From the NCBI RefSeq assembly GCF_003426815.1, contig NZ_QKYK01000034.1, positions 1-60,194 on the forward strand: DNA of 60,194 nt, read 5' to 3'. The position numbers and the translations under genes are program-made. The first letter of the stretch is position 1; each line of letters begins with the position of its first letter. Below are positions 39,590 to 58,105 of this stretch, in pieces. The notes under the pieces were generated by a model. That model saw only the letters and a list, made by a program, of their open reading frames with translations, ran no database searches and was not told where the DNA came from. The stretch is from Desertimonas flava. Lineage in GTDB: Bacteria; Actinomycetota; Acidimicrobiia; Acidimicrobiales; Ilumatobacteraceae.

Positions 39590-39679
39590 TGAGTCATCCA
39601 TGTCGAGTCGTCGTGTCGCGCGAGGCAAACGTGACGGAGCTGGACGCGCTTCCGCTGATAGGTGTCGAGAGGGCGACCG

Positions 39680-40306
39680 ATGAGCACCCGTGACGGGGCT
39701 GCGGTCACCAAGACCGTGGAGGAGATCCGCTACAGGATCATCACCGGGTCACTGAATCCGGGTGAGGCCGTGCGGCAAGAGGACATGGCGCGGGAACTCG
39801 ACGTGAGTCGCGCGCCGGTGCGTGAGGCGCTGCGCGTGCTCGTCGACCAGGGGATGCTCGAACACCGCGTCCACACCGGCTACTTCGTCAAGAAGCGTTC
39901 GGCGACCGAGCTGCGGCAGATCTACATGATGCTCGAGTTCCTCGAGTCGCATGTCATGGCAACGATCGAGCAGCCGAGTGACGCCGCCATCGTCAGGATG
40001 CGCGCGATCAACGAGGAGATGCGGTCGTGCGTGGACTCCGATGACTGGTCACGAATGATCGACCTCAACCGGCGCTTCCACTTCGAGATCTTCCGGCTCT
40101 CGCCGCTCACCGTCGTCCTCGAGGAGCTTGAGCGACTGTGGACGATCGCCGCCCCGTACATCGCGCAGAAGTACGTGACCGTCGAGATGCGCCGGCGCAC
40201 CGTCAGTGAGCACGACGGGCTGATCACGAGTCTCGATCCATTCGATCGTGAGCGGACGAGTGCCCTGCTTGCGACGCACCGGATGCGTCGCTCCGACCTC
40301 GGCTGA
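39680..40306 (+). CDS. GntR-family regulator (FadR/FCD type)
   Basis: A 208-residue repressor. The winged helix is VEEIRYRIITGSLNPGEAVRQEDMARELDVSRAPVREALRVLVDQGMLEHRVHTGYFVKKRS. The all-helical FCD ligand domain has Asp/His metal-site residues in MIDLNRRFHFEIFRLS and VSEHDGLITSL. ATG 39680 was preferred to an upstream start that adds six residues. It opens the catabolic island; its likely operators are at 39574, 40346 and 42736. FCD regulators commonly bind organic acids, so the inducer may be a pathway intermediate. Confidence 0.88.
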   Translation: MSTRDGAAVTKTVEEIRYRIITGSLNPGEAVRQEDMARELDVSRAPVREALRVLVDQGMLEHRVHTGYFVKKRSATELRQIYMMLEFLESHVMATIEQPSDAAIVRMRAINEEMRSCVDSDDWSRMIDLNRRFHFEIFRLSPLTVVLEELERLWTIAAPYIAQKYVTVEMRRRTVSEHDGLITSLDPFDRERTSALLATHRMRRSDLG

Positions 40307-40400: not shown

Positions 40401-40790
40401 GTGGCGACGTCGATCGAAGTTCAGGGGCTCCATCATGGGGGGATGCCGATCCCATCGGCGGCACGGCGCGGGCCGCTGGTTGCAACGGGCGGTATCCCGG
40501 GGCTGGACCCCACCGACGGGTCGTTGCCGGGGAGGCTTGAAGCACAGGTCGCGCGAGTTTTCGCGAACATCGAGGCGATCATCGCCGCGGCCGGAGGGAC
40601 GGTCGGCGACATCGTCAAGATCACATTCCATGTGGCTGACCGATCCGCCCGGGACCTGATCAACCAGCACTGGGTGGACATGTTCCCGGACGAGGCGGCC
40701 CGCCCCGCGCGGCACACGATCGCCCGGGAGCTCGGCGGCGCGCAGCTCGTGCAGGCCGACTTCATCGCCTTCGTCGGCAGCGACGCATGA
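40401..40790 (+). CDS. RidA (YjgF)-family protein
   Basis: A 129-residue protein of the RidA fold, which hydrolyses reactive enamines/imines or deaminates aminoacrylate and aminomuconate. Signatures are PLVATGGIPGLDPTDGS, QVARVFANIEAIIAAAGGTVGDIVKITFHVADRS and the terminal strand ADFIAFVGSDA. GTG 40401 has a GGAGG site. It is the first gene of a tightly coupled operon with three RraA-like genes (next ATG overlaps its TGA). A RidA protein in a ring-cleavage cluster is reminiscent of 2-aminomuconate deaminase; this is suggestive only. Confidence 0.87.
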   Translation: MATSIEVQGLHHGGMPIPSAARRGPLVATGGIPGLDPTDGSLPGRLEAQVARVFANIEAIIAAAGGTVGDIVKITFHVADRSARDLINQHWVDMFPDEAARPARHTIARELGGAQLVQADFIAFVGSDA

Positions 40791-41446
40791 GCGACGAAAT
40801 CCGCAGGCGTTTGGAGCGGCTCGACTCCTGTGCGGTTGCCGACGCCGGAGACGCGCTCGGAATCACCACGTGGGTGCCCGGACTCGCGCCCCGATCCGGC
40901 CAGCCACGAATGGTCGGGCGCTGCGTCACGGTGCAGTTGGGAGCGCCGACCGAGGTCGGTGCCTCACGCCATCTCGGAACGGGCGCGGTCGAGGCCTCCG
41001 GGCCCGGGGACGTCATCGTCGTGGCCCACCAGGCACGCACCGACTGCGCAGGGTGGGGTGGCAACCTCTCACGGGCGGCCAAACAGCTCGGCCTGGAGGG
41101 CACCATCGTGCACGGCGCGGTGCGCGACGTCGACGAGGCGGAAGCGATCGGCTACTCGGTCTTCGCCAGTGCGGTGACGCCGGTGACAGCGAGAGGGCGC
41201 GCCCACGAACATGCCTGGGGCCAGGCGGTCGAGCTCGGTGGCGTCGTCGTCGCCAACGGTGACTGGGTGCTCGCCGATCGTTCGGGCGTGGTGTTTCTGG
41301 CAGCCGACCGGGTCGATGAGTTGCTCGGCCGAGCCGAGGTCATCGCAGAGCGAGAGGCGGCCATGGCAGCCGAGATCGATGCCGGCGCCCCCGTGAGTTC
41401 GGTGATGGGAGCCTCCTACGAGACGATGCTGGAGAAGACGTCGTGA
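40787..41446 (+). CDS. RraA/HMG-CHA aldolase-family protein, paralogue 1
   Basis: A 219-residue protein of the RraA fold, a family that includes 4-hydroxy-4-methyl-2-oxoglutarate / 4-carboxy-4-hydroxy-2-oxoadipate aldolase as well as the RNase E regulator. The Arg-Asp pair needed for metal and substrate binding is present in GTIVHGAVRDVDEAEAIGYSVFA. Unlike the other two paralogues, the position usually occupied by an acidic residue about 20 residues earlier reads WGGNL, and the GFP-type loop reads GYS. It may therefore have a different substrate. Start and stop overlap its neighbours. Confidence 0.82.
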   Translation: MSDEIRRRLERLDSCAVADAGDALGITTWVPGLAPRSGQPRMVGRCVTVQLGAPTEVGASRHLGTGAVEASGPGDVIVVAHQARTDCAGWGGNLSRAAKQLGLEGTIVHGAVRDVDEAEAIGYSVFASAVTPVTARGRAHEHAWGQAVELGGVVVANGDWVLADRSGVVFLAADRVDELLGRAEVIAEREAAMAAEIDAGAPVSSVMGASYETMLEKTS

Positions 41447-42096
41447 GCCTCCGTGAGCGACTCTCCCGGCTCGATACCCCTGCGCTCTCCGATGCCCTGG
41501 ACCGTCTGGGCATCGACGGGCAGGTCGTGGGCATCGCGCCCCTCGATCGGTCGTTTCGTCTCGTCGGTCAGGCATTCACCGTGCGGATGCTTCCCGTGGG
41601 TACCACCGGAAGGAACGTCGGCGACTACATCGACGACGTCAGGTCCGGCGACGTCGTGGTGATCGACAACGGCGGGCGACGGGACGCGACCGTGTGGGGC
41701 GACATCTTGACGACGGTTGCCCACCGCGACGGCGTCGCCGGGACGGTGATCGACGGGGTGTGCCGCGACGTCGGACGAAGCCTCGACCTCGGATATCCGA
41801 TCTACGCACGCGATGTCACGATGCGCACCGGGAAGGACCGTGTGTGTGCCGAGGCGTTCAACGAGGCGGTCCAGCTTGCCGGCGTGCGGGTGGAGCCGGG
41901 GGACTGGCTGCGGGGCGATGCCGACGGCATCGTCGTGCTCCCGCTCTCGCTCGCCGAGCGCATCGTGGACGTCGCCGAGGAGATCGACGCGACGGAGGAA
42001 GCCATTCGAGTCGCGGTCGGCGAGGGCGGCGCGCTGCTCGATGCCCGTCGCCGCTCCGGCTATCACGCGCTTCAGACCCGGAGGGCGACGCCGTGA
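41443..42096 (+). CDS. RraA/HMG-CHA aldolase-family protein, paralogue 2
   Basis: A 217-residue RraA-fold protein. The motif is complete: acidic residue in VWGDILTTVAHRDGVAGTVIDGVCRDVGRSLDLGYPIYARD, with Arg-Asp and the following GYP. C-terminal PGDWLRGDADGIVVLP is also family-typical. Of the three paralogues this is closest to the aldolase consensus, so it is the best candidate for cleaving a 4-hydroxy-2-oxo acid to pyruvate after ring opening. GTG 41443 overlaps the previous stop. Confidence 0.84.
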   Translation: MSLRERLSRLDTPALSDALDRLGIDGQVVGIAPLDRSFRLVGQAFTVRMLPVGTTGRNVGDYIDDVRSGDVVVIDNGGRRDATVWGDILTTVAHRDGVAGTVIDGVCRDVGRSLDLGYPIYARDVTMRTGKDRVCAEAFNEAVQLAGVRVEPGDWLRGDADGIVVLPLSLAERIVDVAEEIDATEEAIRVAVGEGGALLDARRRSGYHALQTRRATP

Positions 42097-42716
42097 CCGA
42101 CGGCCTCGACCTCACGCAGGCGGCGGCGCTGGGGAGCGCGACGGTCCATGAGGCGGCGGGACGAGTCGGGGCGCTGCGCGCCGACATGCTTCCGGCGGCG
42201 CACGCGGTGTCGGCCGCGGGGCCGGCGTTCACCGTGCAGTGTCCCAGTGGCGACAATCTCTGGCTGCATCGGGCGATCGCGGCCGCGTCGCCGGGTGATG
42301 TGCTGGTCGTCGCCACCGGAGACGACCGGGCTCGGTGGGGATACTGGGGTGAGATCATGTCCGTCGCCGCCCGCGAACGTGGCCTCGCCGGTCTCGTGCT
42401 CGAAGGTGGGAGTCGCGATCACGGTGAACTCGCCCATGTCGGATTCCCGGTCTGGTCACTCGGTCGATGCATCACAGGCACCGTGAAGGATCCCGATCGC
42501 GACGGTGGCGCCCTCTGCGGGCCGATCCGTGTCGGTGACGTCTCGGTCCGCCCCGGCGACTTGATCGTGGCCGACGTCGACGGCGTGGTGGTGATCGAGC
42601 GCGCGGGCGCGAGCGACGTCATCGCGGCGGCCGCGAGGCGACGGATCGACGAGACGCGAATCATCGCCGAGTTGGTCGCCGGGCGGACGACGCTCGATCT
42701 GCTCGGCTTGCAGTAG
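42093..42716 (+). CDS. RraA/HMG-CHA aldolase-family protein, paralogue 3
   Basis: A 207-residue RraA-fold protein. YWGEIMSVAARERGLAGLVLEGGSRDHGELAHVGFPVW retains the acidic residue, Arg-Asp and GFP. PGDLIVADVDGVVVIE matches the family end motif. GTG 42093 overlaps the previous TGA; translation further upstream in the same frame would run inside paralogue 2. It is the last gene of the RidA-RraA unit; a GntR site follows at 42736. Confidence 0.84.
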   Translation: MTDGLDLTQAAALGSATVHEAAGRVGALRADMLPAAHAVSAAGPAFTVQCPSGDNLWLHRAIAAASPGDVLVVATGDDRARWGYWGEIMSVAARERGLAGLVLEGGSRDHGELAHVGFPVWSLGRCITGTVKDPDRDGGALCGPIRVGDVSVRPGDLIVADVDGVVVIERAGASDVIAAAARRRIDETRIIAELVAGRTTLDLLGLQ

Positions 42717-42724
42717 CCCACACG

Positions 42725-42751
42725 ATTGGATGTAAGATTGCAGCCAATGTG
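42725..42751 (+). promoter_or_regulatory. Candidate GntR operator, site 3, before the dioxygenase-transport unit
   Basis: GATTGCAGCCAATGTG (42736-42751) is identical to site 1. An extra ATTGG at 42725-42729 pairs with CCAAT at 42744-42748. A possible -10 TAAGAT (42733-42738) overlaps the site, with TTGCAG at 42708 as -35. Confidence 0.6.
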
Positions 42752-42819: not shown

Positions 42820-43797
42820 ATGGCCCACCTCGTTGGGGCCGGCGCATCCAGCCACAGCCCTCTCCTGCTCGCCAACCCGTCCCTCTGGCGCGAACGCGCT
42901 CACCAAGATCGCAGCAACACGCAGCTCTACGACTCGTCGGGACGCCTGCGGACCTATGACGAACTCGAGGCGGAGGCGGGCGATCGGTTCGCAGCCGAGC
43001 TGAGCGACGACGTGTGGGCGGCGCGCTTCGAGGCCTGTCAGCAGGGCATCCGCCGAGTCGGACAGACGTTGCGCGATCTCGAGCTCGACGCCGTGATCGT
43101 GGTCGGTGACGACCAGGCCGAGCTGTTCGACGAGAGCAACCAGCCGGCCCTCGCTCTCTACTGGGGCGAAACGTGGGAGACCGCAGAGCTCCCGTTCCAC
43201 GGATCGGACTTCTTCGATGCCGTGAAGGCCGGCTACGCCATGGACGCTGTCCATCGGTTCCAGGGGGCGGGCGACCTGGCGCGATCCATCCTGGCCAGCC
43301 TCTGCGATGCCGGATTCGACGCGACGAGTGTCGCGTCACAGCCGCCCGGAAAGGGATTCGGCCACGCGTTCGGCTACGTGGGCGAGCGTCTCCTCGGAAC
43401 GCGGGAGCTGCCGATCGTGCCGCTGCTCCTGAACACGTACTTCCCGCCCAACCAGCCGACGCCACGTCGCTGTGTGCAGCTCGGCGATGCATTGCGCAAC
43501 GCGATCGAGGCGGCGCCGGGCGACGCTCGTGTCGCCATCGTCGCATCGGGTGGTCTCAGCCACTTCGTCGTCGACGAGGCGCTGGACGAGCGCGTGCTCG
43601 ACGGTGTCCGGACCGGCAAGACGGAGGACCTTGCGGAGATTCCCACGGCGCTGCTCCGGGCCGGTTCGTCGGAGATTCGCAACTGGATCACGGTCGTGGC
43701 AGCGATGCAGAACGGAGCGAGCTGGCACGACTACGCCCCCTGCTACCGCTCTCCGGCCGGCACCGGGTGCGGTATGGGGTTCGCCGTCTGGACGTAG
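42820..43797 (+). CDS. LigB-type class III extradiol ring-cleavage dioxygenase
   Basis: A 325-residue protein. HLVGAGASSHSPLL places His12 exactly where protocatechuate 4,5-dioxygenase LigB has its first iron ligand. VIVVGDDQAELFDESNQPALALYWGE and VAIVASGGLSHFVVDEALDE supply the conserved active-site His and later elements. The family opens catecholic or aminophenolic rings with O2 and Fe(II). There is no separate LigA-type small subunit in the island, so it is a single-subunit member. The ring substrate is unknown. GGAG precedes ATG 42820; GntR site 3 is immediately upstream. Confidence 0.85.
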   Translation: MAHLVGAGASSHSPLLLANPSLWRERAHQDRSNTQLYDSSGRLRTYDELEAEAGDRFAAELSDDVWAARFEACQQGIRRVGQTLRDLELDAVIVVGDDQAELFDESNQPALALYWGETWETAELPFHGSDFFDAVKAGYAMDAVHRFQGAGDLARSILASLCDAGFDATSVASQPPGKGFGHAFGYVGERLLGTRELPIVPLLLNTYFPPNQPTPRRCVQLGDALRNAIEAAPGDARVAIVASGGLSHFVVDEALDERVLDGVRTGKTEDLAEIPTALLRAGSSEIRNWITVVAAMQNGASWHDYAPCYRSPAGTGCGMGFAVWT

Positions 43798-43886: not shown

Positions 43887-45395
43887 ATGAATCGAAGGTC
43901 TGCGATCGCAGCCTTAGCCGTAGCGAGCATGACGCTCGCGGCGTTCGGCAGCGATGTCCGGGCGAGTATCGCGCCCGACGAGCCGACCGGGGAGTTGCGT
44001 GTCGGCGAAGCGCTGGCATGGATGTCCTGGGATCCACTCCAGGTCATTCGCGCCGGCTACGACATGGCCTGGTTCCGGCCCGTGTACGAGCCGCTGTTCG
44101 AGGTGGGCCCCGATCTCAGCCTGGAATCAACGCTGCTCGCCGGCTGGGACCTCACCTCCGAGTATCTCGACCTGACCTTGATCGACGGCATCACGTTCCA
44201 GGACGGGACGGCGCTCGATGCCGAGGCACTCAAGTTCAACCTGCTGCGTGCCCGTGACACCGAAGGCCCGAGCCAGTCACTCTTCGCGTCCGTCGCCGAC
44301 GTCGAGATCGTCGACCCGCTCAGCGTTCGCGTCGTGCTGGCCACACCGACCCCCCACCTGCCGTATGTGCTCGCCAAGGATGCCGGGATGATGGTGAGCC
44401 CGGCCGCGGCCGAAGCCGGCACACTCGAGACCGAGCCCGTGGGCACCGGGCCCTGGGTCCTCAACACCGACGAGACGCAGGCCGACGCTCAGGCCGTCTA
44501 TGACGCCTGGGACGGCTATCGCGACCCGAGTCAGCAGCGCATCGCTCGGATCGTGATCTATCCCGGCGTCTTCGGGCCGGAGCCGTTCGCCGCCGGAGAT
44601 CTGGACATCTCGTACTTCGCCGATCCCCAGCGATCGGCGATGGAGGGCGCCAACGGCGCCATCGCGTCGGAACCGTACGGCGGCGGCACCCTGCTGTCGT
44701 TCATCGATCGCGGATCCGGCGGTGTGTTCGAGGATGTCCGAGTCCGCGAAGCGGTCGCCGCGGCGATCGATCGCGAGGCGCTGAACGCGGCTGTTGGCAA
44801 CGGCGGCGATCCCCGCGCCGTTCCAGTCGCCGGTGACGACTACGCCGCGTCCGAAGAGCTGACGGGGCACCCGTTCGAACCAGATCGCGCCGAATCGCTG
44901 CTCGCCGACGCCGGGGTCGAGGGACTCTCCTTCTCGATCCCGGTCTATCCGCCGGTGCAGGCGATCGGCGAGGCGCTCCAGGCGCTCCTTCGTGAGCAGG
45001 GCATCGAGATGGAGCTGGTCCCGATCACCGGGAGCATTTTCGCCGAGTGCTCATCGGGCAAGTACGAGGCGTGCATGTTCACCGACTCGGCGAGTCACCC
45101 CGCGCAGATGTACGACCTGATGGTGAGCGCTGAGACGTTCCTCAATCCGTCTGGCGTCGAATCCGAGGAGGTAGCCGCAGCCGCCCAGGCGGCGTTCGCC
45201 GAGCCCGACCTCGCCACCGCCGAGCCGCTGTGGAACGCCTGGTACCAGGCGGTGTTCAACGACGACGTCGCCTTGACCTATCTCGTCCGCTCGCCGGTCG
45301 AGATGGCGTACCACCCCGATCGCGTCGAGACGCCGAACCTCACGTTCGTCGCTCCGACGGCCATCGACTTCCGCGGGCTCGCGCTCGTCGACTGA
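43887..45395 (+). CDS. Peptide/nickel-type ABC substrate-binding protein without lipobox Cys
   Basis: A 502-residue family 5 binding protein (DppA/OppA/NikA type): ESTLLAGWDLTSEYLDLTLIDGITFQDGTALDAEALKFNLLRARD, then VGTGPWVL and the C-terminal lobe with FEDVRVREAVAAAIDREALN. The export signal is MNRRSAIAALAVASMTLAAFGSD. It has the shape of a lipoprotein signal (LAACGSD expected), but the lipobox cysteine is Phe (TTC rather than TGC). It would thus be secreted free or cut by signal peptidase I near RAS. It is followed by a perfect hairpin and then the importer genes. Confidence 0.88.
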   Translation: MNRRSAIAALAVASMTLAAFGSDVRASIAPDEPTGELRVGEALAWMSWDPLQVIRAGYDMAWFRPVYEPLFEVGPDLSLESTLLAGWDLTSEYLDLTLIDGITFQDGTALDAEALKFNLLRARDTEGPSQSLFASVADVEIVDPLSVRVVLATPTPHLPYVLAKDAGMMVSPAAAEAGTLETEPVGTGPWVLNTDETQADAQAVYDAWDGYRDPSQQRIARIVIYPGVFGPEPFAAGDLDISYFADPQRSAMEGANGAIASEPYGGGTLLSFIDRGSGGVFEDVRVREAVAAAIDREALNAAVGNGGDPRAVPVAGDDYAASEELTGHPFEPDRAESLLADAGVEGLSFSIPVYPPVQAIGEALQALLREQGIEMELVPITGSIFAECSSGKYEACMFTDSASHPAQMYDLMVSAETFLNPSGVESEEVAAAAQAAFAEPDLATAEPLWNAWYQAVFNDDVALTYLVRSPVEMAYHPDRVETPNLTFVAPTAIDFRGLALVD

Positions 45396-45403
45396 CCCCC
45401 GTG

Positions 45404-45436
45404 CGGTGGGGCGCCGGACTGTCCGGCGCCCCACCG
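45404..45436 (+). terminator. Intercistronic hairpin between binding protein and permease genes
   Basis: Perfect 15-base arms (45404-45418 and 45422-45436) with loop CTG, 8 bp after the binding-protein stop. In importer operons such hairpins partly terminate transcription or stabilise the upstream mRNA so that the binding protein outnumbers the channel. Confidence 0.75.
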
Positions 45437-45462
45437 TTCCGTTCGCCTGAAAGGTCGTCCTT

Positions 45463-46410
45463 GTGCTGAGGCTCCTGCGGTTCCGACTGCTCGCCGTGAT
45501 CCCGACCATCGTCCTCGTCTCGCTGCTCACCTTCGCGCTCAGCCACCTCTTGCCCGGCAGCGTGGGTGAGACGATCCTCGGTGCCCAGGCCTCGCCCGAG
45601 GCCGTCGCCGAGATCGAGACGTCGATGGGCCTGGACAAGCCGCTCCCGACGCAGTACATGAGTTGGGCAGGCGACGCACTGCGGGGCGATTTCGGTGAGT
45701 CGATCGCTGTCGAGCGGGGCCAGGAGGTGCGGTCGATGATCACGTCCCGACTGCCGACCACACTCTCGCTCGCCGGCTTCGCACTGCTGCTCGCCGTGTG
45801 CCTCGGTATCCCCGCCGGTGCGCTGGCCGCGTTCCGCTCCAGCAGCCTGACCGATCGGGTGATCACGGTCGTGGCGTCCATCGGTCTGGCGGTGCCCAGC
45901 TTCTGGCTGGCGATCGTTCTCGTCCGATGGCTGGCGTCGGAGCTGGGCTGGTTCCCGTCATTCGGATACTCACCGTTGGGCGACGGCGTCGGATCGTGGC
46001 TCCACTCGCTCGTCCTCCCAGCGCTCGCCCTCGGCCTGCCGTCCGCGGCGCTGATCGCGCGTCAGTCCCGGGCGGCGCTGCTCGAGGTACTGCAACAGGA
46101 CTACATCCGCACGGCGCTCGCTGTCGGACTTCGTACTCGCACCGTGCTGTTCCGCTACGCGCTCAAGAACGCAATGGTCCCGATCATCACGATCATCGGG
46201 TTCCAGGCCGCGTTCGTGCTCGGTGGCAGCGTCGTCATCGAGCGGGTCTTCGGCCTCCCCGGCTTCGGGAGTCTCGCCCTCAAGGCCGTGCTCGCCCAGG
46301 ACATTCCCGTGGTCCAGGCGTACGTCTTGTTCATCGCACTCCTGGTGATCCTGATCAACCTCGTGGTCGACGTCAGCTACGGCTGGTTCAACCCGAAGGT
46401 GCGCCAATGA
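45463..46410 (+). CDS. ABC transporter permease, DppB type
   Basis: A 315-residue inner-membrane permease with six helices. LLAVIPTIVLVSLLTFALSHLLPGS is the conserved N-terminal helix. The cytoplasmic coupling loop is ARQSRAALLEVLQQDYIRTALAVGLRTRTVLFRYALKNAMVP, containing the EAA-type motif; GGSVVIERVFGLPGFGSL follows. GTG 45463 is the start; the stop overlaps the ATG of the next gene. It pairs with the permease half of the fusion at 46407. Confidence 0.92.
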   Translation: MLRLLRFRLLAVIPTIVLVSLLTFALSHLLPGSVGETILGAQASPEAVAEIETSMGLDKPLPTQYMSWAGDALRGDFGESIAVERGQEVRSMITSRLPTTLSLAGFALLLAVCLGIPAGALAAFRSSSLTDRVITVVASIGLAVPSFWLAIVLVRWLASELGWFPSFGYSPLGDGVGSWLHSLVLPALALGLPSAALIARQSRAALLEVLQQDYIRTALAVGLRTRTVLFRYALKNAMVPIITIIGFQAAFVLGGSVVIERVFGLPGFGSLALKAVLAQDIPVVQAYVLFIALLVILINLVVDVSYGWFNPKVRQ

Positions 46411-48452
46411 TGCCGGCGACACGCGAGCCGGCGATCGTCGAGGCATCCCCGACGTCGTCCGTCGAGCGCGCGGCGGTGACGCCCTCGCCGGAGTCCACCG
46501 AGGCTTCCCCGGCCGGCCGCCAGGGCACCGTGGGGAAGTTGATGCGTCAGCGAGTGACCGTCGTCGCGAGCGCGATCATCGTCGTGTTCCTGCTCGCTGC
46601 AGTCCTCGCTCCGTGGATCGCGCCCCACGGCGAGCTCGAGACGGACTTCTCCGCCACGCTGCAAGGCCCGAGCTCCGACCACTGGCTCGGCACGGACCAG
46701 CTCGGACGCGACACGCTCAGCCGGACGCTGTTCGGCGCCCGTGTCGCGCTGGAGTCGGTCGTCAAGGCGCTCCTCCTCGCGATTGCCTCCGGCGTGACCA
46801 TCGGCGTCCTCCTCGGCTACGTCGGTGGCCGCCTCGATCGGTATGCCATGCGCCTGGTCGATGTGCTGTACTCGATTCCCGGGCTCGTCATCGCCCTCGC
46901 CGTCATCGCCATCCTCGGCCCCAGCCTGACGAACGCGATGATCGCGGTCGGCATCATCTTCGCGACCTACTACGTGCGTCTCGCCCGCGGCGCCACCCTC
47001 GCCGTTCGCGAGGAGTTGTACATCGACGCGGCAAGAGTGAGTGGCACACCGTTCGTCGCGCTCCTGCGCCGCCACGTGCTCCCCAACATCGCCAGTCCGC
47101 TCGTCATCCAGACGGCGATCATCGCCGGGCAGATCATCTTGATCGAGGCGGCGCTCAGCTTCCTCGGCCTCGGACGCGACATCGAGCGCGCGAGTTGGGG
47201 TGGCATGCTGGCGACGGCACTGGAGAACCAGTACGTCCAGCCGTTCCTTGCCGTTCCTCCGGGCGTCGCGATCGTCGTGACCGTCCTCGCGTTCAACCTC
47301 TTCGGCGACGGGCTGCGCGACGCGTTGGGCCGCGACGTGGGACGTCACCACCTCACCCGCCGGAGCCACGTCCCGGTCACGTATCTCGACGCGACGCCGA
47401 CCGCGGCCGCCCCGACCGTGTTGTCGTCGATGAGCGACGTGTCGATGTCCGGGCGCGACGAGCGAGCACCTGCCGGCGATGCCAGGTTCCCCGTCGTGTT
47501 CGGCATCCGCGACCTCGAGGTTGCCTTCGCCAACCCTCACGGCGGCATCTCGAGCGTCGTCCGTGAGGTGTCGTTGGACCTCGAGCGGGGCCGGACGCTC
47601 GCTCTCGTCGGCGAATCGGGGTCAGGAAAGACGATGACCGCGCTCGCTGCGATCGACCTACTCCCGGCGGGCGCCACGCTGGTCAGCGGGACGGTGACCT
47701 GGTCGGAGTCCACCGAGAAACCGGTGCGGGGGCGCGACCTCGCCATGGTCTTCCAGGAACCGATGACCGCGCTCAACCCGGCGTTCACGATCGGCCAGCA
47801 GATCGCCGCTCCGGCGCGCCGTCACCTGGGCTTGTCGCGGCGCGCGGCACGTGAGCGGGCGGTCGACCTGCTCGCCCGGGTCGGGGTGCCCGACCCGGGG
47901 CGGCGGGTCGACGACTATCCCCATCAGTTCTCCGGAGGGATGGCGCAGCGGGCGATGATCGCGATGGCACTCGTCTGTGAGCCCAGCGTGCTGATCGCCG
48001 ACGAGCCGACGACTGCACTCGACGTGACCGTCCAGGGGCAGATCGTCGACCTCCTCCTCGACCTCCAGGACGAGATGGGCATGGCGATGCTCTTCGTGAC
48101 GCACGACCTGGGTCTCGTGGCCGACGTCGCCCACCGGGTCGCCGTGATGTATGCCGGGCAGATCGTCGAGGAGGCCGACGCGAGCGCTCTCTTCGCTCGG
48201 CCCGCACATCCCTACACCGAGGCCTTGCTCGATGCGATGCCGGCGCGCTCTCTCGCTGGCAGAGCGCTGCCGACGATTCCTGGCCGCGTTCCCGCGCCGT
48301 GGGGTCGCCCCTCGGGCTGCGTGTTCGCCGAGCGCTGCCGGTACACGGTCGACGCCTGCCGGCTCGAGACGGTCGAGCTCGTGCCGGTGGGTGACGGCCG
48401 CCGATCGCGTTGCGTTCGCGTCGCCTCGATCTTCGAGGACGTGACGCTGTGA
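46407..48452 (+). CDS. DppC permease fused to DppD ATPase
   Basis: A 681-residue fusion. Residues 1-45 form a cytoplasmic tail; about 46-310 are a DppC-type permease (LGTDQLGRDTLSRTLFGARVALE, coupling loop YIDAARVSGTPFVALLRRHVLPN). A linker of about 50 residues leads to an ATPase: Walker A GESGSGKT, Q-loop VFQEPMTALNP, signature FSGGMAQRAMIAMAL, Walker B VLIADEPTTALDV, and a C-terminal oligopeptide-transporter domain with cysteines (GCVFAERCRYTVDAC). There is no stop between the halves. ATG 46407 overlaps the DppB stop, and the next GTG overlaps its own. Confidence 0.92.
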   Translation: MMPATREPAIVEASPTSSVERAAVTPSPESTEASPAGRQGTVGKLMRQRVTVVASAIIVVFLLAAVLAPWIAPHGELETDFSATLQGPSSDHWLGTDQLGRDTLSRTLFGARVALESVVKALLLAIASGVTIGVLLGYVGGRLDRYAMRLVDVLYSIPGLVIALAVIAILGPSLTNAMIAVGIIFATYYVRLARGATLAVREELYIDAARVSGTPFVALLRRHVLPNIASPLVIQTAIIAGQIILIEAALSFLGLGRDIERASWGGMLATALENQYVQPFLAVPPGVAIVVTVLAFNLFGDGLRDALGRDVGRHHLTRRSHVPVTYLDATPTAAAPTVLSSMSDVSMSGRDERAPAGDARFPVVFGIRDLEVAFANPHGGISSVVREVSLDLERGRTLALVGESGSGKTMTALAAIDLLPAGATLVSGTVTWSESTEKPVRGRDLAMVFQEPMTALNPAFTIGQQIAAPARRHLGLSRRAARERAVDLLARVGVPDPGRRVDDYPHQFSGGMAQRAMIAMALVCEPSVLIADEPTTALDVTVQGQIVDLLLDLQDEMGMAMLFVTHDLGLVADVAHRVAVMYAGQIVEEADASALFARPAHPYTEALLDAMPARSLAGRALPTIPGRVPAPWGRPSGCVFAERCRYTVDACRLETVELVPVGDGRRSRCVRVASIFEDVTL

Positions 48453-49528
48453 GCACGATTCTCGCCATCGAGGACCTTCAGGTGCACTTCACGGTGCGGC
48501 GCGGCGGCCAACGGCTCGTCGCGCGCGCCGTCGACGGTGTGGACCTCGAGATTGCTCCTTCCGAAACGCTCGGCCTCGTGGGTGAGTCGGGGTCCGGGAA
48601 GTCGACAACGGGTCGGGCGGTCCTCCGCCTGGTGGACATCACCGCTGGTTCCATCCGGTTCGGAGGCGTCGAGCTCGACCGTCGCCGCCGCCGGGTCCCG
48701 AGCGACTACCGCAAGCGTGTCCAGGTGGTGTTCCAGGACCCGTACTCGTCGCTGAACCCGCGAATGACGGTCGGCTCAGCGGTCGCCGACCCGGCGCGAC
48801 GGCACCTCGGACTGTCGAAGGCGGACTCGATGCAGCGGGCGCGGGAGCTCTTCGACGTGGTCGGGCTCGACACACGACATGTCGACCGGCTGCCCCACGA
48901 GTTCTCCGGAGGGCAGCGCCAGCGGATCGCCATCGCCCGGGCGCTCTCCAGCGAACCCGAGCTGATCGTTTGCGATGAGGCAGTGTCGGCGCTCGACGTC
49001 TCGACGCAGGCACAAGTCCTCAACCTGTTGCGCGACCTGCGCGTGCAGACCGGCGTCGCCTACCTCTTCATCGCCCATGACCTCGACGTGGTCCGGCACG
49101 TCTCCGACCGGATCTCGGTGATGTACCTCGGCCGGATCGTCGAAACCGGACCCGCCGAGGCCGTGGCCACCGCGCCTCGGCATCCCTACACGGAACTGCT
49201 TCACGACGCGATCCCGCTACCCGACCCTGCCGCCCAGGCGGAGCGGCGCACAGCGCGGCGCCAGCTTCGCTCGTCAGCGGACCCGCCGAGTCCGCTGGCC
49301 CCGCCGACCGGATGCAGCTACCACCCTCGTTGCCCGTTCGCGATGGACATCTGCCGGCAGGAGGCTCCGACGCCGACTCCCGTCGACACAGCGACCGGCG
49401 CATGGGTGCGCTGCCACCTCCACACGCACGGTCCGGTGTTGGCGGGTGCCCCTGTCGCCGAGCTGATCGGCTGGCGGCGGGACACGCCAGCTGGTGACAC
49501 CGCCCGAGGCGCAAGGCCGACCGGATGA
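48449..49528 (+). CDS. ABC transporter ATP-binding protein, DppF type
   Basis: A 359-residue ATPase. Walker A is [10 protein letters not shown]-loop [17 protein letters not shown], signature [15 protein letters not shown], Walker [19 protein letters not shown]-loop [12 protein letters not shown], and the oligopeptide C-terminal domain with cysteines ([15 protein letters not shown]). With genes 43887-48452 it completes a DppABCDF-like importer. Given its place in a catabolic cluster, the cargo is more likely the pathway substrate than a peptide. The last 25 residues are unconserved. Confidence 0.92.
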
Positions 49529-49565
49529 CTGTTCACGACCCAGCACCAAACCATCTGGAGGAACG

Positions 49566-50870
49566 ATGAACCAGAACGAGAACGAGCGGATGTGCCGCGT
49601 GGGGCCGGGTACGGCCATGGGGTCGGCGCTGCGACGTCGGTGGGTCGCGGCCTGCCTGTCCACCGACGTGTCGGAGCCCGGCGGTGCGCCGGTGCGGATC
49701 AAGCTGCTCGGTGAGTGGTTCGTCGTCTTCCGCGACTCCGAAGGTGTTGTCGGAATGCTCGACGAACGCTGCCCCCACCGAGGCGCGTCGCTTGCGTTCG
49801 GCCGCAACGAAGACTGTGGGCTCCGCTGCCTCTGGCACGGGTGGAAGATCGGCGTCGACGGTGTGCTCCAGGAGACGCCGAACATCGCCGACGACCACTT
49901 CCGTCAACGGGTCAAGGCGCGGTCGTACGACGTCGTCGAGCTCGGTGGCTTCGTGTGGGCCCACCTTGCGGGAGGGGAGCGACCGCCACTGCCCGACTAC
50001 CAGTGGGCTCACGTGCCCGACGAGCACCGGCTGATCGTCGCCGCCGACCTCGACAGCAACTTCACCCAACCGCTCGAAGGGCTGGCCGACTCCTCCCACG
50101 TCGGGATCCTCCACAGCAACCTGGTCGCCAAGATGTCCGGAGGGGCCAAGGATCTGTCCGCCCTGCGCCGCGACCAGGCGCCGCGCTTGCTCGTCGAACC
50201 GACCGACTTCGGCTTCCACTACGCAGCACTCCGCAAGGTCGACGAGCCCACCGGTGGCCACCACGTGCGGATCACCGCCTACGCGGCTCCACTGCTCTTC
50301 TTCATCGCCCCTGGGGGTCAGGCGTTCATGAGCGTCCCCCAAGACGACACTCACTCTCGCTTCTACAACATCTTCTGGTCCGCCACCGAGCCGCTGAGCG
50401 ATGGGCCGGCGCGGCAGTTCCGACTGGACATGTTCGGGCTCCACCGCGAGCAGCTCGCCGAGTACGGCATGCTTCCCGAGCACCCGCTGGTCGGGGACCT
50501 CGGACGGCGGAATCACTTCACCCAAGACCGTGCGGGCATGCGCGCCGGCTCCACCTTCAGCGGTCTCAACGGGCTCACCTCGGAAGACGCCGCGATGACC
50601 GCATCGATGGGCGACCTCTACGACCGCGCGGCCGAGCATCTCGTTCCTGCGGATCTGGCAGTGATCCGACTCCGTCGCATCCTCCGGTCGATCGCCGACG
50701 AGGATGCCGACCGGCCCGCGCGGATGACCACAGAGACGTCGCGGATCACCGCGGCCGAGGCCGTGCTCGGTCCCAACGCCGATTGGCATGCGCTCGTTCC
50801 CCACCACAACGTCGTGGGCCGTGCTGTCGCCGCCGATGACGCCGCGACCGACGACGAGCAGCTCGTGTGA
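49566..50870 (+). CDS. Rieske non-heme iron oxygenase, alpha subunit (A)
   Basis: A 434-residue aromatic-ring oxygenase of the phthalate-dioxygenase/O-demethylase branch. Rieske ligands are Cys69, His71, Cys88 and His91 (CPHRG ... CLWHGW). The mononuclear iron site is in LADSSHVGILHS, giving two histidines after the bridging Asp. ATG 49566 has a GGAGG site; an upstream frame extension lacks family similarity. It needs a reductase (VanB or ferredoxin/reductase), and none is encoded nearby. Likely reaction: dihydroxylation or oxidative demethylation of an aromatic acid. Confidence 0.88.
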   Translation: MNQNENERMCRVGPGTAMGSALRRRWVAACLSTDVSEPGGAPVRIKLLGEWFVVFRDSEGVVGMLDERCPHRGASLAFGRNEDCGLRCLWHGWKIGVDGVLQETPNIADDHFRQRVKARSYDVVELGGFVWAHLAGGERPPLPDYQWAHVPDEHRLIVAADLDSNFTQPLEGLADSSHVGILHSNLVAKMSGGAKDLSALRRDQAPRLLVEPTDFGFHYAALRKVDEPTGGHHVRITAYAAPLLFFIAPGGQAFMSVPQDDTHSRFYNIFWSATEPLSDGPARQFRLDMFGLHREQLAEYGMLPEHPLVGDLGRRNHFTQDRAGMRAGSTFSGLNGLTSEDAAMTASMGDLYDRAAEHLVPADLAVIRLRRILRSIADEDADRPARMTTETSRITAAEAVLGPNADWHALVPHHNVVGRAVAADDAATDDEQLV

Positions 50871-50916
50871 TCCGGCCGCACAACACCATCCCCCAACTCA
50901 CGTCAACAGGAGCAAC

Positions 50917-51936
50917 ATGATCAACGACACCAAGGTCCTCGACGTCCACTCGCACGTCAGCCATCCGATGGACGGCATGGGGCGGATGCTCATGCTCATG
51001 CTGGCGACGAACATGAAGCTCGGCAGCCCGATCGGCACGCCCGCCGCCGAGGAAGCCGGACTCGGCGAGGAGGCCTTCGCCACGGCGGTCGAGCAACACA
51101 TCCGCTACATCGACGAGCGCAACATCGACGCCCAGGTGCTCGGCCCGCGGCCCTTCTTGATGCTCGGTTGGATGGAGCCACACCTCCTGCCGATGTGGAC
51201 CCGCCTGGTCAACGACGCGATCCACCATCAGTGCCAGCTCCGTCCCGATCGCTTCGTCGGCGCATGTCAGCTCCCGCAGGACGCCACGGCGCCCGACTCG
51301 ACGCACATGCTCGACGAGCTGCGACGCACCGTCGACGACTACGGCTTCGTCGGCGTCTACGTCAGTCCCGACCCCGACGGTCACCGTACGAGTCCAGGAC
51401 TCGCCGACCGCTACTGGTACCCGCTGTACGAGGAGTGCTCAGCTCGGTCCTTGCCGATCATCATTCACGGGACCAACACCCTGGATCGTCGCTTCAACCA
51501 CGTGCCCCACAACTACCAGCTCGGCTTCGTCGCCGAGCAGTACTGGGCCGGGCAGATCCTGTCTCACAGCGATGTGTTCGATCACTTCCCCGATCTCCGC
51601 TTCGTCATCTGCCATTGCGGCGGCGCGCTCGACCGGTGGATCCCCACCGACCCCCATCTCGCTCAGAAGGACCTGTCGGAGAACATCCTCTATGACACCT
51701 GCGCCCACGACGTGCACTACCTGGAAGCAGCGATCAAGCAACGGGGAGTCGCCCGACTCTGCTTCGGGACCGAAGCCCCCGGGTCCGGTCGCGCCATTCG
51801 CCCGGAGACCGGCCGTTCCGCCGACGACCTCGTCCCGGTGATCGACGCCTACGACTTTCTCAGCGATGCCGACAAGGTGACGATCTTCCACGACAACCCC
51901 GCGAAGCTGTTCCCCCAGCTCGCCAAGATCGCCTGA
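50917..51936 (+). CDS. Amidohydrolase 2-family protein (ACMSD/LigJ-like)
   Basis: A 339-residue metal-dependent TIM barrel of the amidohydrolase-2 family. The metal-binding H-x-H is in VLDVHSHVSHP (His11, His13). Further likely ligands are in LPIIIHGTN and FVICHCGGALDRW, and RLCFGTEAPG contains the late acidic position. This family includes aminocarboxymuconate-semialdehyde decarboxylase, 4-oxalomesaconate hydratase and carboxyvanillate decarboxylase, all in ring-cleavage routes. Between two Rieske genes it probably acts on an intermediate; decarboxylation or hydration cannot be told apart here. AGGAG precedes ATG 50917. Confidence 0.82.
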   Translation: MINDTKVLDVHSHVSHPMDGMGRMLMLMLATNMKLGSPIGTPAAEEAGLGEEAFATAVEQHIRYIDERNIDAQVLGPRPFLMLGWMEPHLLPMWTRLVNDAIHHQCQLRPDRFVGACQLPQDATAPDSTHMLDELRRTVDDYGFVGVYVSPDPDGHRTSPGLADRYWYPLYEECSARSLPIIIHGTNTLDRRFNHVPHNYQLGFVAEQYWAGQILSHSDVFDHFPDLRFVICHCGGALDRWIPTDPHLAQKDLSENILYDTCAHDVHYLEAAIKQRGVARLCFGTEAPGSGRAIRPETGRSADDLVPVIDAYDFLSDADKVTIFHDNPAKLFPQLAKIA

Positions 51937-51965: not shown

Positions 51966-53255
51966 GTGTTGACTGCCGAAGAGAACGAGCTGCTCACCCG
52001 CGTCGGGCCGGGCACGCCGATGGGGAACCTGCTGCGCCGGTATTGGTGGCCGGTCCTTGCTGCCGATGAGCTCGGCCGGACGCCGACGAAGGCGATCCGC
52101 GTGTTGGGTGAGGACCTCGTCGCCTATCGCGACCTCTCGGGCAACCTCGGGTTGATCGAGCGTCACTGCCCTCACCGCCGGGCCGATCTGTCGCTCGGCA
52201 TCCTCGAGCCGGACGGCATCCGCTGCTCGTACCACGGATGGTGTTTCGACGCCTCTGGCCGCTGCACGGATCAGCCCTACGAGCAGACGGCGAACCCGAA
52301 CTCGCGCTTTCGCGACAACGTCCGCGCAACCGCCTACCAGCTCCGCGAGCGAGCCGGGATCCTCTGGGCCTACATGGGGCCCGACCCGGCACCTGCGCTG
52401 TGGAACTGGGAGCCCTACGGCTGGGAGAACTGCTTCCGGCAGATCGTGACGGCGGAGGTGCCGTGCAACTGGCTGCAGGCCCAAGAGAACTCGATCGATC
52501 CCGTGCACTTCGAGTGGCTCCACGACAACTGGACCGCAGTGCGATCGGGCCGGCCGGAGCGCGCGGCGAAGCATCTGAAGTTGGGTTTCGACGAGTTCGA
52601 GTTCGGGTTCACCTACCGGCGAATCCGTGAAGGCGGTACCGAGGACGACGAACTGTGGACCGTCGGTCGGGTCTGCTTGTGGCCCAACTGCCTGTTCACC
52701 ACCGATCACTTCGAATGGCGTACGCCGATCGACGACGAGAACATGTTGAGCATCACGCTGGCGACCGAGCGGGTCCCGGTGGACCGAGAACCGTTCACCC
52801 AGGAGACGATCCCCTCCTGGCGGGGGCCCATCTTCGATGACGACGGACAGTGGATCCTGACCCACGTGATGAACCAGGACTTTGCCGCCTGGGTCGGCCA
52901 GGGACGGATCGCCGACAGGACCAGGGAGAATATCGGGCCGTCGGACAGAGGCATCGTGATGATTCGGCGTCAGCTGCTCGCCGATGTGGAGCGGGTCGCG
53001 CGAGGCGAGGATCCCAAAGGCATCGTGCGCGGCGAGGAGACGCCGATCCCGCTGCCGCTCGTCAACGCCGCCACCTTCACCAGACCTCGCTCTCGCTCCG
53101 AGTACGAGGAATGGCACGCGCTCCTCGAACGCATGGGGTTCCCCTCCGACTATCCGTTCCAGGCTGGTCAGCCGGCGTGGGTGCGGAGCCTGTACCAGGA
53201 GGCGATGGCAGCTCCCGCCGGATCGCCGCGGGCGGAGGCCGGTGTTCTGGCGTGA
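51966..53255 (+). CDS. Rieske non-heme iron oxygenase, alpha subunit (B)
   Basis: A 429-residue oxygenase, clearly different from the one at 49566. Rieske ligands are Cys68, His70, Cys87 and His90 (HCPHRRADLSLG ... CSYHGW). The iron site region is QAQENSIDPVHFEWLHD, and the phthalate-4,5-dioxygenase-like architecture RVGPGTPMGNLLRRYWWPV is shared by both copies. GTG 51966 follows a GGAGGGG site. Its TGA overlaps the CoA-transferase start. Two alpha subunits with no partners suggests two sequential oxidations sharing an electron chain encoded elsewhere. Confidence 0.9.
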   Translation: MLTAEENELLTRVGPGTPMGNLLRRYWWPVLAADELGRTPTKAIRVLGEDLVAYRDLSGNLGLIERHCPHRRADLSLGILEPDGIRCSYHGWCFDASGRCTDQPYEQTANPNSRFRDNVRATAYQLRERAGILWAYMGPDPAPALWNWEPYGWENCFRQIVTAEVPCNWLQAQENSIDPVHFEWLHDNWTAVRSGRPERAAKHLKLGFDEFEFGFTYRRIREGGTEDDELWTVGRVCLWPNCLFTTDHFEWRTPIDDENMLSITLATERVPVDREPFTQETIPSWRGPIFDDDGQWILTHVMNQDFAAWVGQGRIADRTRENIGPSDRGIVMIRRQLLADVERVARGEDPKGIVRGEETPIPLPLVNAATFTRPRSRSEYEEWHALLERMGFPSDYPFQAGQPAWVRSLYQEAMAAPAGSPRAEAGVLA

Positions 53256-54448
53256 GCGTCTTGCCGCTCGAGGGCTACCGGGTGATCGACCTGACGTCGG
53301 TGGTCATGGGTCCACTGGCCACCCAGATGCTCGCCGACCAGGGTGCCGACGTCATCGTCGTCGAGCAGCCCGCCGGTGACGCCAACCGCCACATGGGGTT
53401 GGGTCCGCACCGTGACCTGTCCGGGCCGGCGCTCAACCTGATGCGCAACAAGCGCAGCATCGTCCTCGACATCCGGCACCCACGTGGCTACGAGGTACTC
53501 GTCGACCTGGTGCGCAGCGCCGACGTCTTCGTCACCAACCTGAGACCGGGCTCGCGGGCCCGTGCGCGTCTCACCGACGATGATCTCCGCCCCCACCGGC
53601 CGGATCTCGTCTATTGCAGCGTCGCCGGCTTCGCGGCCGACGACCCGCGGGCGGACCACGCCGCCTACGACGACATCGTGCAGGCGGCCGCGGGCTTCGT
53701 CGACATCCACGACCGCGCTGGCCTGACCTCGACGGCCGCGCCGACGATCCTTGTCGACAAGATCGTCGGGATGGCTGTCGCCAATGCGATCACCACAGCC
53801 CTCCTTCATCGAGAGCGCACCGGCTTGGGCTCGGAGATCGCCATGTCGATGCAGGAGATCGCCTCCGCGTGGTTGCTTGTCGAGCACGGCGCGGCCGCCA
53901 TCCCCGAGCCGCCCACCGGCCCTCCGGGCTACCCGCGACTACTGAGTCCCCAACGGCGACCACTGCGTACGAGTGACGGCGCGGTGGCGATCCTCACGTA
54001 CGAGCGGCACCACTTCGAAGGGCTGGCACGCCTGGCCGATCGCGACGACCTGCTCGCCGACCCGCGCTTCTTGACCAGGCTGGGGCGGCTCGAGCACATC
54101 GACGAGCTGTATCGCGAGTACCAGACGATCGCCGCTCGGTTCGACACCGCCACCTTCCTCGAGCGGTGCCGAGCTCACGGCGTCCCGGCCCACGAGGTCG
54201 TGACGCTGGACGACATCATCGCCGAGCTTCGCCTCGCCGATCACCCGCACGCGGGGCGTTACCGCGTCACCCCGTCGCTCGGACCGGCCACCGCCGCCTC
54301 GATCGCTCCGCGCCCGGCCCCGCTGATCGGCGAGCACGGACCGGACATCCTCCGCTCACTTGGCTACCCGGCCGACCAGATCGACGATCTCGTTGGGCTT
54401 CGAGTGCTCGGCTCGGACCCGTGCGAGCCCGCCGATCGACCGACGTGA
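53252..54448 (+). CDS. CaiB/BaiF-type (class III) CoA-transferase
   Basis: A 398-residue transferase moving CoA between acyl groups. The N-terminal PLEGYRVIDLTSVVMGPLATQMLADQGADVIVVEQPAGD and LNLMRNKRSIVLDIRHPRGYEVLVDLVRSADVFVTNLRPG are characteristic; the catalytic Asp should lie in the AAYDDIVQAAAGF region. GTG 53252 overlaps the Rieske B stop, and its own stop overlaps the sulfatase start. With the ligase at 56058 it offers two routes for CoA activation, pointing to CoA thioesters in the pathway. Confidence 0.9.
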   Translation: MSVLPLEGYRVIDLTSVVMGPLATQMLADQGADVIVVEQPAGDANRHMGLGPHRDLSGPALNLMRNKRSIVLDIRHPRGYEVLVDLVRSADVFVTNLRPGSRARARLTDDDLRPHRPDLVYCSVAGFAADDPRADHAAYDDIVQAAAGFVDIHDRAGLTSTAAPTILVDKIVGMAVANAITTALLHRERTGLGSEIAMSMQEIASAWLLVEHGAAAIPEPPTGPPGYPRLLSPQRRPLRTSDGAVAILTYERHHFEGLARLADRDDLLADPRFLTRLGRLEHIDELYREYQTIAARFDTATFLERCRAHGVPAHEVVTLDDIIAELRLADHPHAGRYRVTPSLGPATAASIAPRPAPLIGEHGPDILRSLGYPADQIDDLVGLRVLGSDPCEPADRPT

Positions 54449-56007: not shown

Positions 56008-56057
56008 ACGCAGTGGCCGTGCTCGCCGAGATCGAACCCCCCAACGGAGGTAGACAG

Positions 56058-57632: not shown

Positions 57633-58105
57633 CCGCCGGACTCGCGGCGGCTGCTCGCGGACGGCTGGACGGCTGGCCGGATGACCCGACACGCGAGACT
57701 CGCGACGTGCTGGGACACATCGGAATCAACGTGCCCGACCTGGCTGTCGCGCGGGCGTACTACGCGGACCTGATGCCGCAGGTGGGGTTCGAGCCCTTCC
57801 TCGACGAACCTGACCAGTTCGCCTTTCGGCCAGCGCGGGGCAAGCCAGGGACGTACCTGTTCTTCTACCCCGGCGGTTCGCAGCTGCCGAACTCGCGTCA
57901 TGACACCACTGGGCTTCAACACCTCGCCTTCATGGTCGGCGCTCGAGCCGCAGTCACGGAGGTGCACCGCTGGGCGATCGCGAGCGGAAGCGAGGTCGTC
58001 CACGCGCCTCGCTCGTTCCCCGAGTACCCACCGCCGTACTTCGCGACGTTCTGGCTCGACCCGTTCGGAATCATGCTCGAGGCGGTCTGCCACTACGACC
58101 GATGA
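57629..58105 (+). CDS. VOC-family (glyoxalase/dioxygenase fold) protein
   Basis: A 158-residue metalloprotein of the vicinal-oxygen-chelate superfamily. LGHIGINVPDLAVARAYYADLMPQVGFEPF carries a first metal-ligand-type His, TGLQHLAFMVGARAAVTEVHRWAIASG a second, and DPFGIMLEAVCHYD the Glu. GTG 57629 is coupled to the ligase stop; GTG 57707 would remove a nonconserved 26-residue N-terminus and is equally plausible. It is too short for a two-domain type I extradiol dioxygenase, so it is more likely an isomerase, lyase or binding protein ending the island. Confidence 0.82.
   Translation: MTAGLAAAARGRLDGWPDDPTRETRDVLGHIGINVPDLAVARAYYADLMPQVGFEPFLDEPDQFAFRPARGKPGTYLFFYPGGSQLPNSRHDTTGLQHLAFMVGARAAVTEVHRWAIASGSEVVHAPRSFPEYPPPYFATFWLDPFGIMLEAVCHYDR

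Follow-up and report, generated by a model that had tools for sequence, protein, structure and literature searches.

Why should a single catabolic operon hold three members of the RraA family, where one aldolase seems enough? The question is raised by a window of 60,194 nucleotides (the whole stretch of DNA that was analysed) from Desertimonas flava, contig NZ_QKYK01000034.1, in which three consecutive genes encode RraA-family proteins, here called R1, R2 and R3:

40787..41446, forward strand: RraA1 (R1), 219 residues, ATG start; PF03737, metal motif G-X20-R-D-X2-E.
41443..42096, forward strand: RraA2 (R2), 217 residues, GTG start; PF03737, metal motif D-X20-R-D.
42093..42716, forward strand: RraA3 (R3), 207 residues, GTG start, predicted aldolase of the LigK type for 4-hydroxy-4-methyl-2-oxoglutarate (HMG) or 4-carboxy-4-hydroxy-2-oxoadipate (CHA); PF03737, motif E-X20-R-D, match to structure 3NOJ with E 4e-32, PRK09262 160.2 bits (cut-off 179).

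In our judgement the chances are about even that this trio is the RraA-fold part of a ring-cleavage operon of the LigX-LigZ-LigY type, with R1 and R2 carrying out isomerisation and hydration between LigY and the R3 aldolase. The first-pass annotation described the three genes as consecutive and translationally coupled, and this was confirmed. Overlaps of 4 bp are found at the R1/R2 and R2/R3 junctions and also between R1 and the RidA-family gene before it, and the four genes look coupled. All three proteins match PF03737 (R1 108.8, R2 125.5 and R3 130.2 bits, cut-off 24.5); they are three of the seven PF03737 genes in the genome.

By phylogeny R1, R2 and R3 are three old subfamilies and not the result of a recent triplication, which agrees with the earlier remark that they are clearly diverged. 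In a tree of 98 rows (SH-aLRT support only, midpoint root for drawing, four outgroup rows on long branches) the R1 proteins (30 rows) and the R2 proteins (26 rows) each lie on one side of a single branch, with support of 99 and 100, and are sister groups (SH-aLRT 91). Twenty of the 21 R3 rows form one group (support 93), which joins LigK-like proteins including two other genes of the window's genome. The R3 row from Aminobacter falls with those two genes, outside the main R3 group.

The trio is part of a longer run of genes, and several of these recur beside its relatives in other genomes:

39662..40306, forward strand: GntR/FCD regulator, the probable operon regulator; Pfam GntR and FCD.
40401..40790, forward strand: RidA-family protein; PF01042 52.4 bits, 4 bp overlap with R1.
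42820..43797, forward strand: LigZ-like ring-cleavage dioxygenase of the LigB superfamily; PF02900.
43887..45395, forward strand: solute-binding protein, family 5, of an ATP-binding cassette (ABC) transporter (start approximate); PF00496.
45463..46410, forward strand: ABC permease; PF00528, PF19300.
46404..48452, forward strand: ABC permease and ATPase in a single reading frame (start approximate); OppC_N, BPD_transp_1, ABC_tran and oligo_HPY in a 682-residue frame.
48410..49528, forward strand: ABC ATPase; PF00005, PF08352.
49494..50870, forward strand: Rieske oxygenase 1 (LigXa_C family); PF00355, PF19301.
50911..51936, forward strand: LigY-type C-C hydrolase of the amidohydrolase superfamily; LigY structures 5vn5/6e6i with E 4e-49, ahead of LigJ with 7e-39.
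51966..53255, forward strand: Rieske oxygenase 2, LigXa-like; 56% identity over 418 residues to the Rieske protein of the presumed 5,5'-dehydrodivanillate (DDVA) cluster of strain SYK-6.

Genome contigs were scanned for R1; 261 candidates were confirmed and the best 80 were kept, of which 79 were usable in a census of neighbours made with home-made profiles (L064 was excluded). By record title these loci belong to Actinomycetota, Pseudomonadota, Acidobacteriota, Chloroflexota and Bacillota. As the loci were selected through R1, the counts tell how often a gene stands beside R1 and not the converse. R2 is present in 60/79 loci, in 57 of them within 200 bp of R1, and the other module genes are an amidohydrolase (64 loci), a dioxygenase (50), R3 (32), RidA (28) and a Rieske oxygenase (28). 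The same genes are found in 45 (R2), 50 (amidohydrolase), 37 (dioxygenase), 27 (R3) and 21 (RidA) of the 57 loci that have at least 4 kb on both sides. R1, R2 and R3 stand in line in 17/79 loci, so the arrangement is not due to chance. No adjoining PF03737 genes were found in 60 genomes from the window's own family or order. Nineteen of 58 R1-R2 junctions overlap by 4 or 1 bp and 51 are below 30 bp, when the start nearest to the stop is chosen, which favours short gaps.

Whole or partial modules are carried on named plasmids of Polymorphobacter, Aminobacter, Rhodococcus koreensis, Bradyrhizobium, Sphingobium fuliginis and Novosphingobium (pLA1 and pNL1), and the Polymorphobacter and Aminobacter plasmids encode R1-R2-R3 with 4-bp overlaps. 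The R2 orthologues of pLA1 (L028, 10649-11305) and pNL1 (L029, 1128-1796) are annotated as diguanylate cyclase, and R1 orthologues elsewhere as dimethylmenaquinone methyltransferase, demethylmenaquinone methyltransferase or hypothetical protein. Two clusters of GntR/FCD genes are also recurrent, each in seven surveyed loci.

The pairing of R1 and R2 is equally evident in sets of whole genomes. In the class of the window (296 genomes) an R1 match above 160 bits is found in three genomes only, the window's own, G066 and G290; all three encode R2 as well, and G290 is without an R3-grade gene. Among 396 genomes sampled from the phylum, six have an R1-grade gene (E at most 1e-60), and precisely those six have an R2-grade gene by the same threshold (Fisher p 2e-13, which ignores kinship). 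By their codes these six genomes fall in six families, and all of them have an R3-type gene above 200 bits. In the genus of Sphingobium fuliginis (94 genomes) R1 and R2 are found in the same 11, where all 15 R1-R2 pairs are adjacent and within 43 bp by match edges. R1 and R2 are thus a widely conserved gene pair.

Such a pair could form an obligate hetero-oligomer, for example a mixed trimer, that works as a single enzyme with R3 as a separate one. The shared occurrence in the same genomes, the strict adjacency in the genus of S. fuliginis and the sister relationship of the two groups in a tree rooted at its midpoint are all consistent with this. We nevertheless consider it unlikely, as R1 and R2 each have a metal motif of their own and do not always travel together. 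Nineteen loci are without an R2 label, and in 16 genomes checked (L076, L102 and L107 were left out) R2 was found elsewhere in five (above 300 bits); in the other 11, of unreported completeness, no match above 175 bits was found anywhere. Gene order varies too, R3 standing between R1 and R2 in G066, and in G393 the two genes are about 68 kb apart. No fusion of R1 and R2 was found among the surveyed loci; a 606-residue frame in L064 that matches both crosses a run of N and was rejected as an artefact. The distance matrices of R1 and R2 correlate (r 0.82) not above those of several other module pairs. Such correlations were dropped as a sign of contact, since all 21 gene pairs correlate (r 0.44-0.88, with no species-tree control), and were taken to indicate co-inheritance only.

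The metal motifs separate the three subfamilies further. All three proteins keep the Arg-Asp pair, as first described, and the residue 21 positions before it, whose acidic character had been noted for R2 and R3, is Gly in R1, Asp in R2 and Glu in R3. R1 had been made to look odd on this account, and that impression was not right: the motif G-X20-R-D-X2-E/D is conserved in 90/90 R1 proteins, and R1 is not degenerate. We take this to be the motif of RraA from Thermus thermophilus (1j3l) and of yeast Yer010Cp (2c5q), and it was reportedly described by Mazurkewich et al. in 2014 as a second metal-binding motif with aldolase activity in the T. thermophilus and yeast proteins. The GYS loop pointed out in R1 does exist, as a local feature only; 8 of 11 aligned R1 rows carry G-x-P there. 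In R2 the Asp of D-X20-R-D is found in 65/70 proteins, and in R3 an Asp or Glu in 33/38. These counts take the first match of a simple pattern, and the few exceptions may be mis-hits. PF03737 matches above the cut-off together with a metal motif identify all three as candidate RraA-fold metal enzymes. For R1 and R2 the fold is predicted from AlphaFold models (pLDDT, the predicted local distance difference test, 93.8 and 92.3), and both match RraA-fold structures with 3k4i first. The nearest structures are 3k4i (25-26% identity) and then 2c5q (20-21%) for R1, and 3k4i (42%) for R2.

The active-site residues of the HMG/CHA aldolase 3NOJ are found in R3 only, which is probably an aldolase of this LigK type. 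Mapping was done by hand from the pairwise alignment of R3 and conserved columns. R3 matches R40, N71, H75, R123, D124, G144, T145 and K147, and has Glu at the position of D102. Its R183 and E187, a conserved R-x3-E, fit R195 and E199 by pattern, the pairwise alignment being one residue off. In R1 and R2 the Arg-Asp pair is kept, as is the position of T145 and, on a tentative reading, that of E199; N71, H75 and R195 have no equivalents in them. D102, D124 and E199 also have assigned roles in this active site. The roles of R123 and other residues are described in the available portion of PMC5065237. No member of the trio passes the NCBIfam cut-offs: against PRK09262 (179) R3 scores 160.2, R1 53.8 and R2 81.7 bits, and against TIGR02798 (304.5) R3 scores 143.2, R1 44.4 and R2 76.1 bits.

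These residues bear on a further explanation, that R1 and R2 are additional isozymes of the aldolase or of oxaloacetate decarboxylase that prefer other side chains, and neither isomerase nor hydratase. In its favour, both metal motifs of the family have reportedly been tied to aldolase or decarboxylase activity, in an abstract of 2014; most RraA-family homologues carry one of two motifs, according to the part of PMC5065237 that is available. Extra isozymes seem rather improbable all the same, given the residues of 3NOJ that have no equivalents in R1 and R2 and the aldolase signature already supplied by R3; moreover, redundancy would leave the pairing of R1 and R2 unexplained.

The setting of the trio suggests other steps. 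The hydrolase, dioxygenase and Rieske oxygenase expected of a LigXa-LigZ-LigY (DDVA) pathway were all recognised in the window, as LigY-type, LigZ-like and LigXa-like proteins, respectively. A profile of the module amidohydrolases scores 476 bits on LigY (5vn5, 6e6i) and 300 on LigJ. One surveyed genome, G730, encodes the first 103 residues of LigY without a single change and is presumed to be Sphingobium SYK-6; the same exact stretch is present in a close relative (G731). In both, the dioxygenase gene is followed in turn by R1, R2 and LigY, and a Rieske gene stands further along, so that R1 and R2 sit between the ligZ- and ligY-type genes of the presumed SYK-6 DDVA cluster. In the available text of PMC12997858, ligZ of SYK-6 is SLG_07720 and ligY is SLG_07750, and R1 and R2 should therefore be SLG_07730 and SLG_07740. 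Neither number is mentioned in PMC12997858 or PMC6874591 (main texts), nor in the further papers retrieved, a retrieval that would miss any paper containing nothing but such a number. Identities between the window and the presumed SYK-6 cluster are 43% for R1, 56% for R2, 31% for LigZ, 34% for LigY and 56% (418 residues) for Rieske oxygenase 2, whose counterpart there is presumed to be LigXa. In the genus of S. fuliginis a LigY-type gene is found in 10/11 genomes with R1 and R2 versus 1/83 others (p 1e-11), the matches in G756 and G777 being partial (240-250 of 335 positions).

The presumed SYK-6 genome has a second module (L161, G730 C1 2089500-2108500) with amidohydrolase, dioxygenase, R1, R2 and R3 in line plus a Rieske gene, and the window dioxygenase is 36% identical to the dioxygenase of this module. 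At the position of LigB His61 (1b4u alignment; residue 99 in the window), which we take to be an iron ligand, all 61 aligned LigZ-like dioxygenases have Gln in a D-Q-x-E motif, and His12, His182, His248 and Glu285 are invariant in the same 61. As the presumed LigZ carries the same Gln (NDQRELF), the substitution seems compatible with dioxygenase activity.

From the observed gene order, subfamily identities, motifs and conserved linkage, and the predicted fold of R1 and R2, we infer a series of reactions, the way in which R1 and R2 share the work, and the substrate. A LigXa-like Rieske oxygenase would prepare a catechol, the LigZ-like dioxygenase would open its ring, and the LigY-type hydrolase would cleave the product, yielding an aromatic acid together with a 2-hydroxy-2,4-dienoate, for instance 4-carboxy-2-hydroxypenta-2,4-dienoate (CHPD). 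R1 and R2 would then isomerise and hydrate, with a divalent metal keeping the 2-oxo acid in its enolate form, and R3 would cleave HMG (or CHA) to pyruvate. The available part of a 2025 paper (PMC12673573) proposes that CHPD is hydrated to HMG, which an aldolase then splits, and enters the hydration enzyme of SYK-6 as still to be identified; according to the available part of PMC6874591, CHPD seems to be used by SYK-6 cells. The enzymes of the protocatechuate route are named LigU, LigJ and LigK in the part of PMC12997858 at hand. Isomerisation by LigU, hydration by LigJ and aldol cleavage by LigK would be the matching steps, an analogy that is ours, and the count of steps and enzymes fits the trio. 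In support of a role for R1 and R2, open reading frames like hydratases of the fumarylacetoacetate hydrolase (FAH) type are present in 4/91 loci only, by a profile built from three sequences. The RraA family is furthermore not limited to aldol cleavage, since FlDet is an RraA-family protein with dehydratase/decarboxylase activity, according to the available portion of PMC8563752.

Successive steps are thus the better-supported option compared with a heteromer, because only R3 has the aldolase residues and R1 and R2 are separate subfamilies with conserved metal motifs of their own, and because R1 and R2 often accompany enzymes of the LigZ and LigY types, which are followed by a step with no enzyme assigned to it. 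The first-pass annotation had offered both options, action on successive intermediates or a hetero-oligomer; the former gained support, and the latter is the less probable of the two. We put forward more tentatively a general form of the same proposal, in which three RraA-fold enzymes in at least five phyla would run three successive steps (isomerisation, hydration and retro-aldol cleavage) on one metal-bound 2-oxo acid after LigY, in place of the usual, unrelated tautomerase, hydratase and aldolase.

The order ligZ-R1-R2-ligY in the presumed SYK-6 cluster could also mean that R1 and R2 act before LigY, for example as tautomerases of the ring-fission product. LigY, however, reportedly needs no other protein to process the LigZ product in vitro, which makes this most improbable. 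Despite their shared fold and Pfam family, there is next to no chance that the three are RraA-type RNase E regulators without a catalytic role, as all are far under the cut-offs of the corresponding models (best 60.5 of 136 for PRK09372 and 44.1 of 241.25 for TIGR02998), their metal motifs are conserved, and their context is catabolic in loci of the five phyla.

Other pathways were considered for the operon. Riboflavin catabolism was set aside, its final steps using a cobalt hydrolase, a cupin-annotated protein and LumX in the available part of PMC12746152. A gallate-type route with a LigJ-type hydratase is less likely in view of the LigY and LigJ scores, which also disfavour a 2-aminophenol-type route (RidA as aminomuconate deaminase, with an ACMSD-like amidohydrolase), as does the presence of RidA in a minority of the loci.

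Several observations weigh against the proposal of successive steps after LigY. The 11 genomes with R1 and no R2-grade gene indicate that R2 is not always needed, and G725 has a LigY-type gene without R1 and R2, G761 having R1 and R2 without a LigY-type match. The score that divides LigY-type from LigJ-type proteins, about 310 bits, was set after the list had been seen. With identities of 34% (LigY) and 31% (LigZ) to the presumed SYK-6 proteins, the substrate in the window may not be DDVA, and may instead be another biaryl or a substituted catechol. Other possible hydratases occur at the loci, of the fumarase type in seven and of the enoyl-CoA-hydratase type in eight. By profile, G066 and G290 showed neither LigZ-like nor LigY-like genes in stretches of 19-20 kb, and there was no LigZ-like gene in the plasmid stretches of pLA1, pNL1 and S. 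fuliginis (L028, L029, L037).

In the remainder of the operon, a peptide-type ABC transporter spans 43887-49528, and the OppC-like permease and ATPase that share one reading frame at 46404-48452 are likely a natural fusion. Frames lying downstream (52850-58105) code for a CoA-transferase, whose frame ends at 54448, for a sulfatase and for an acyl-CoA synthetase; a further match, to the glyoxalase family, is weak. A candidate operator in the gap between R3 and the dioxygenase gene (42725-42745) was dropped, having no second copy within the window.

CHPD is the smaller of the two halves of DDVA, a lignin-type biphenyl, and no hydratase has been assigned to it in a well-studied degrader. If its hydration is the work of R1 and R2, genes now annotated as RraA family, hypothetical, demethylmenaquinone methyltransferase or diguanylate cyclase would receive a function, and a pathway that matters for the use of lignin could be completed. 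It would also widen the range of reactions of the RraA fold and explain the presence of three relatives at one locus. No report of a function for R1 or R2, or of tandem RraA genes in such operons, was found in the literature searched, which leaves most subscription journals outside.

Among known systems, LigK/GalC of Pseudomonas putida F1 (3NOJ) is the best solved match of R3 and shares with it the Pfam family, the Arg-Asp pair and the phosphate and substrate residues; R3 differs in the Glu for Asp102 and in its scores below the NCBIfam cut-offs, and R1 and R2 have no equivalents of N71, H75 and R195. R1 resembles 1j3l and 2c5q in motif and fold, whereas it forms a separate subfamily that is often tied to LigZ/LigY-type modules. 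The solved structure closest to both R2 and R1 is PSPTO_3204 (3k4i), an RraA-fold protein whose entry is labelled uncharacterised. FlDet, a KDGR dehydratase/decarboxylase likened here by its description in the available part of PMC8563752, is an RraA-family protein doing non-aldol chemistry as proposed for R1 and R2, but belongs to an alginate pathway. The ligXa-ligZ-ligY cluster of SYK-6 shares LigXa-like, LigZ-like and LigY-type proteins, R1 and R2 with the window, which in turn adds R3, RidA and the peptide-type ABC transporter, in another gene order and at 31-56% identity.

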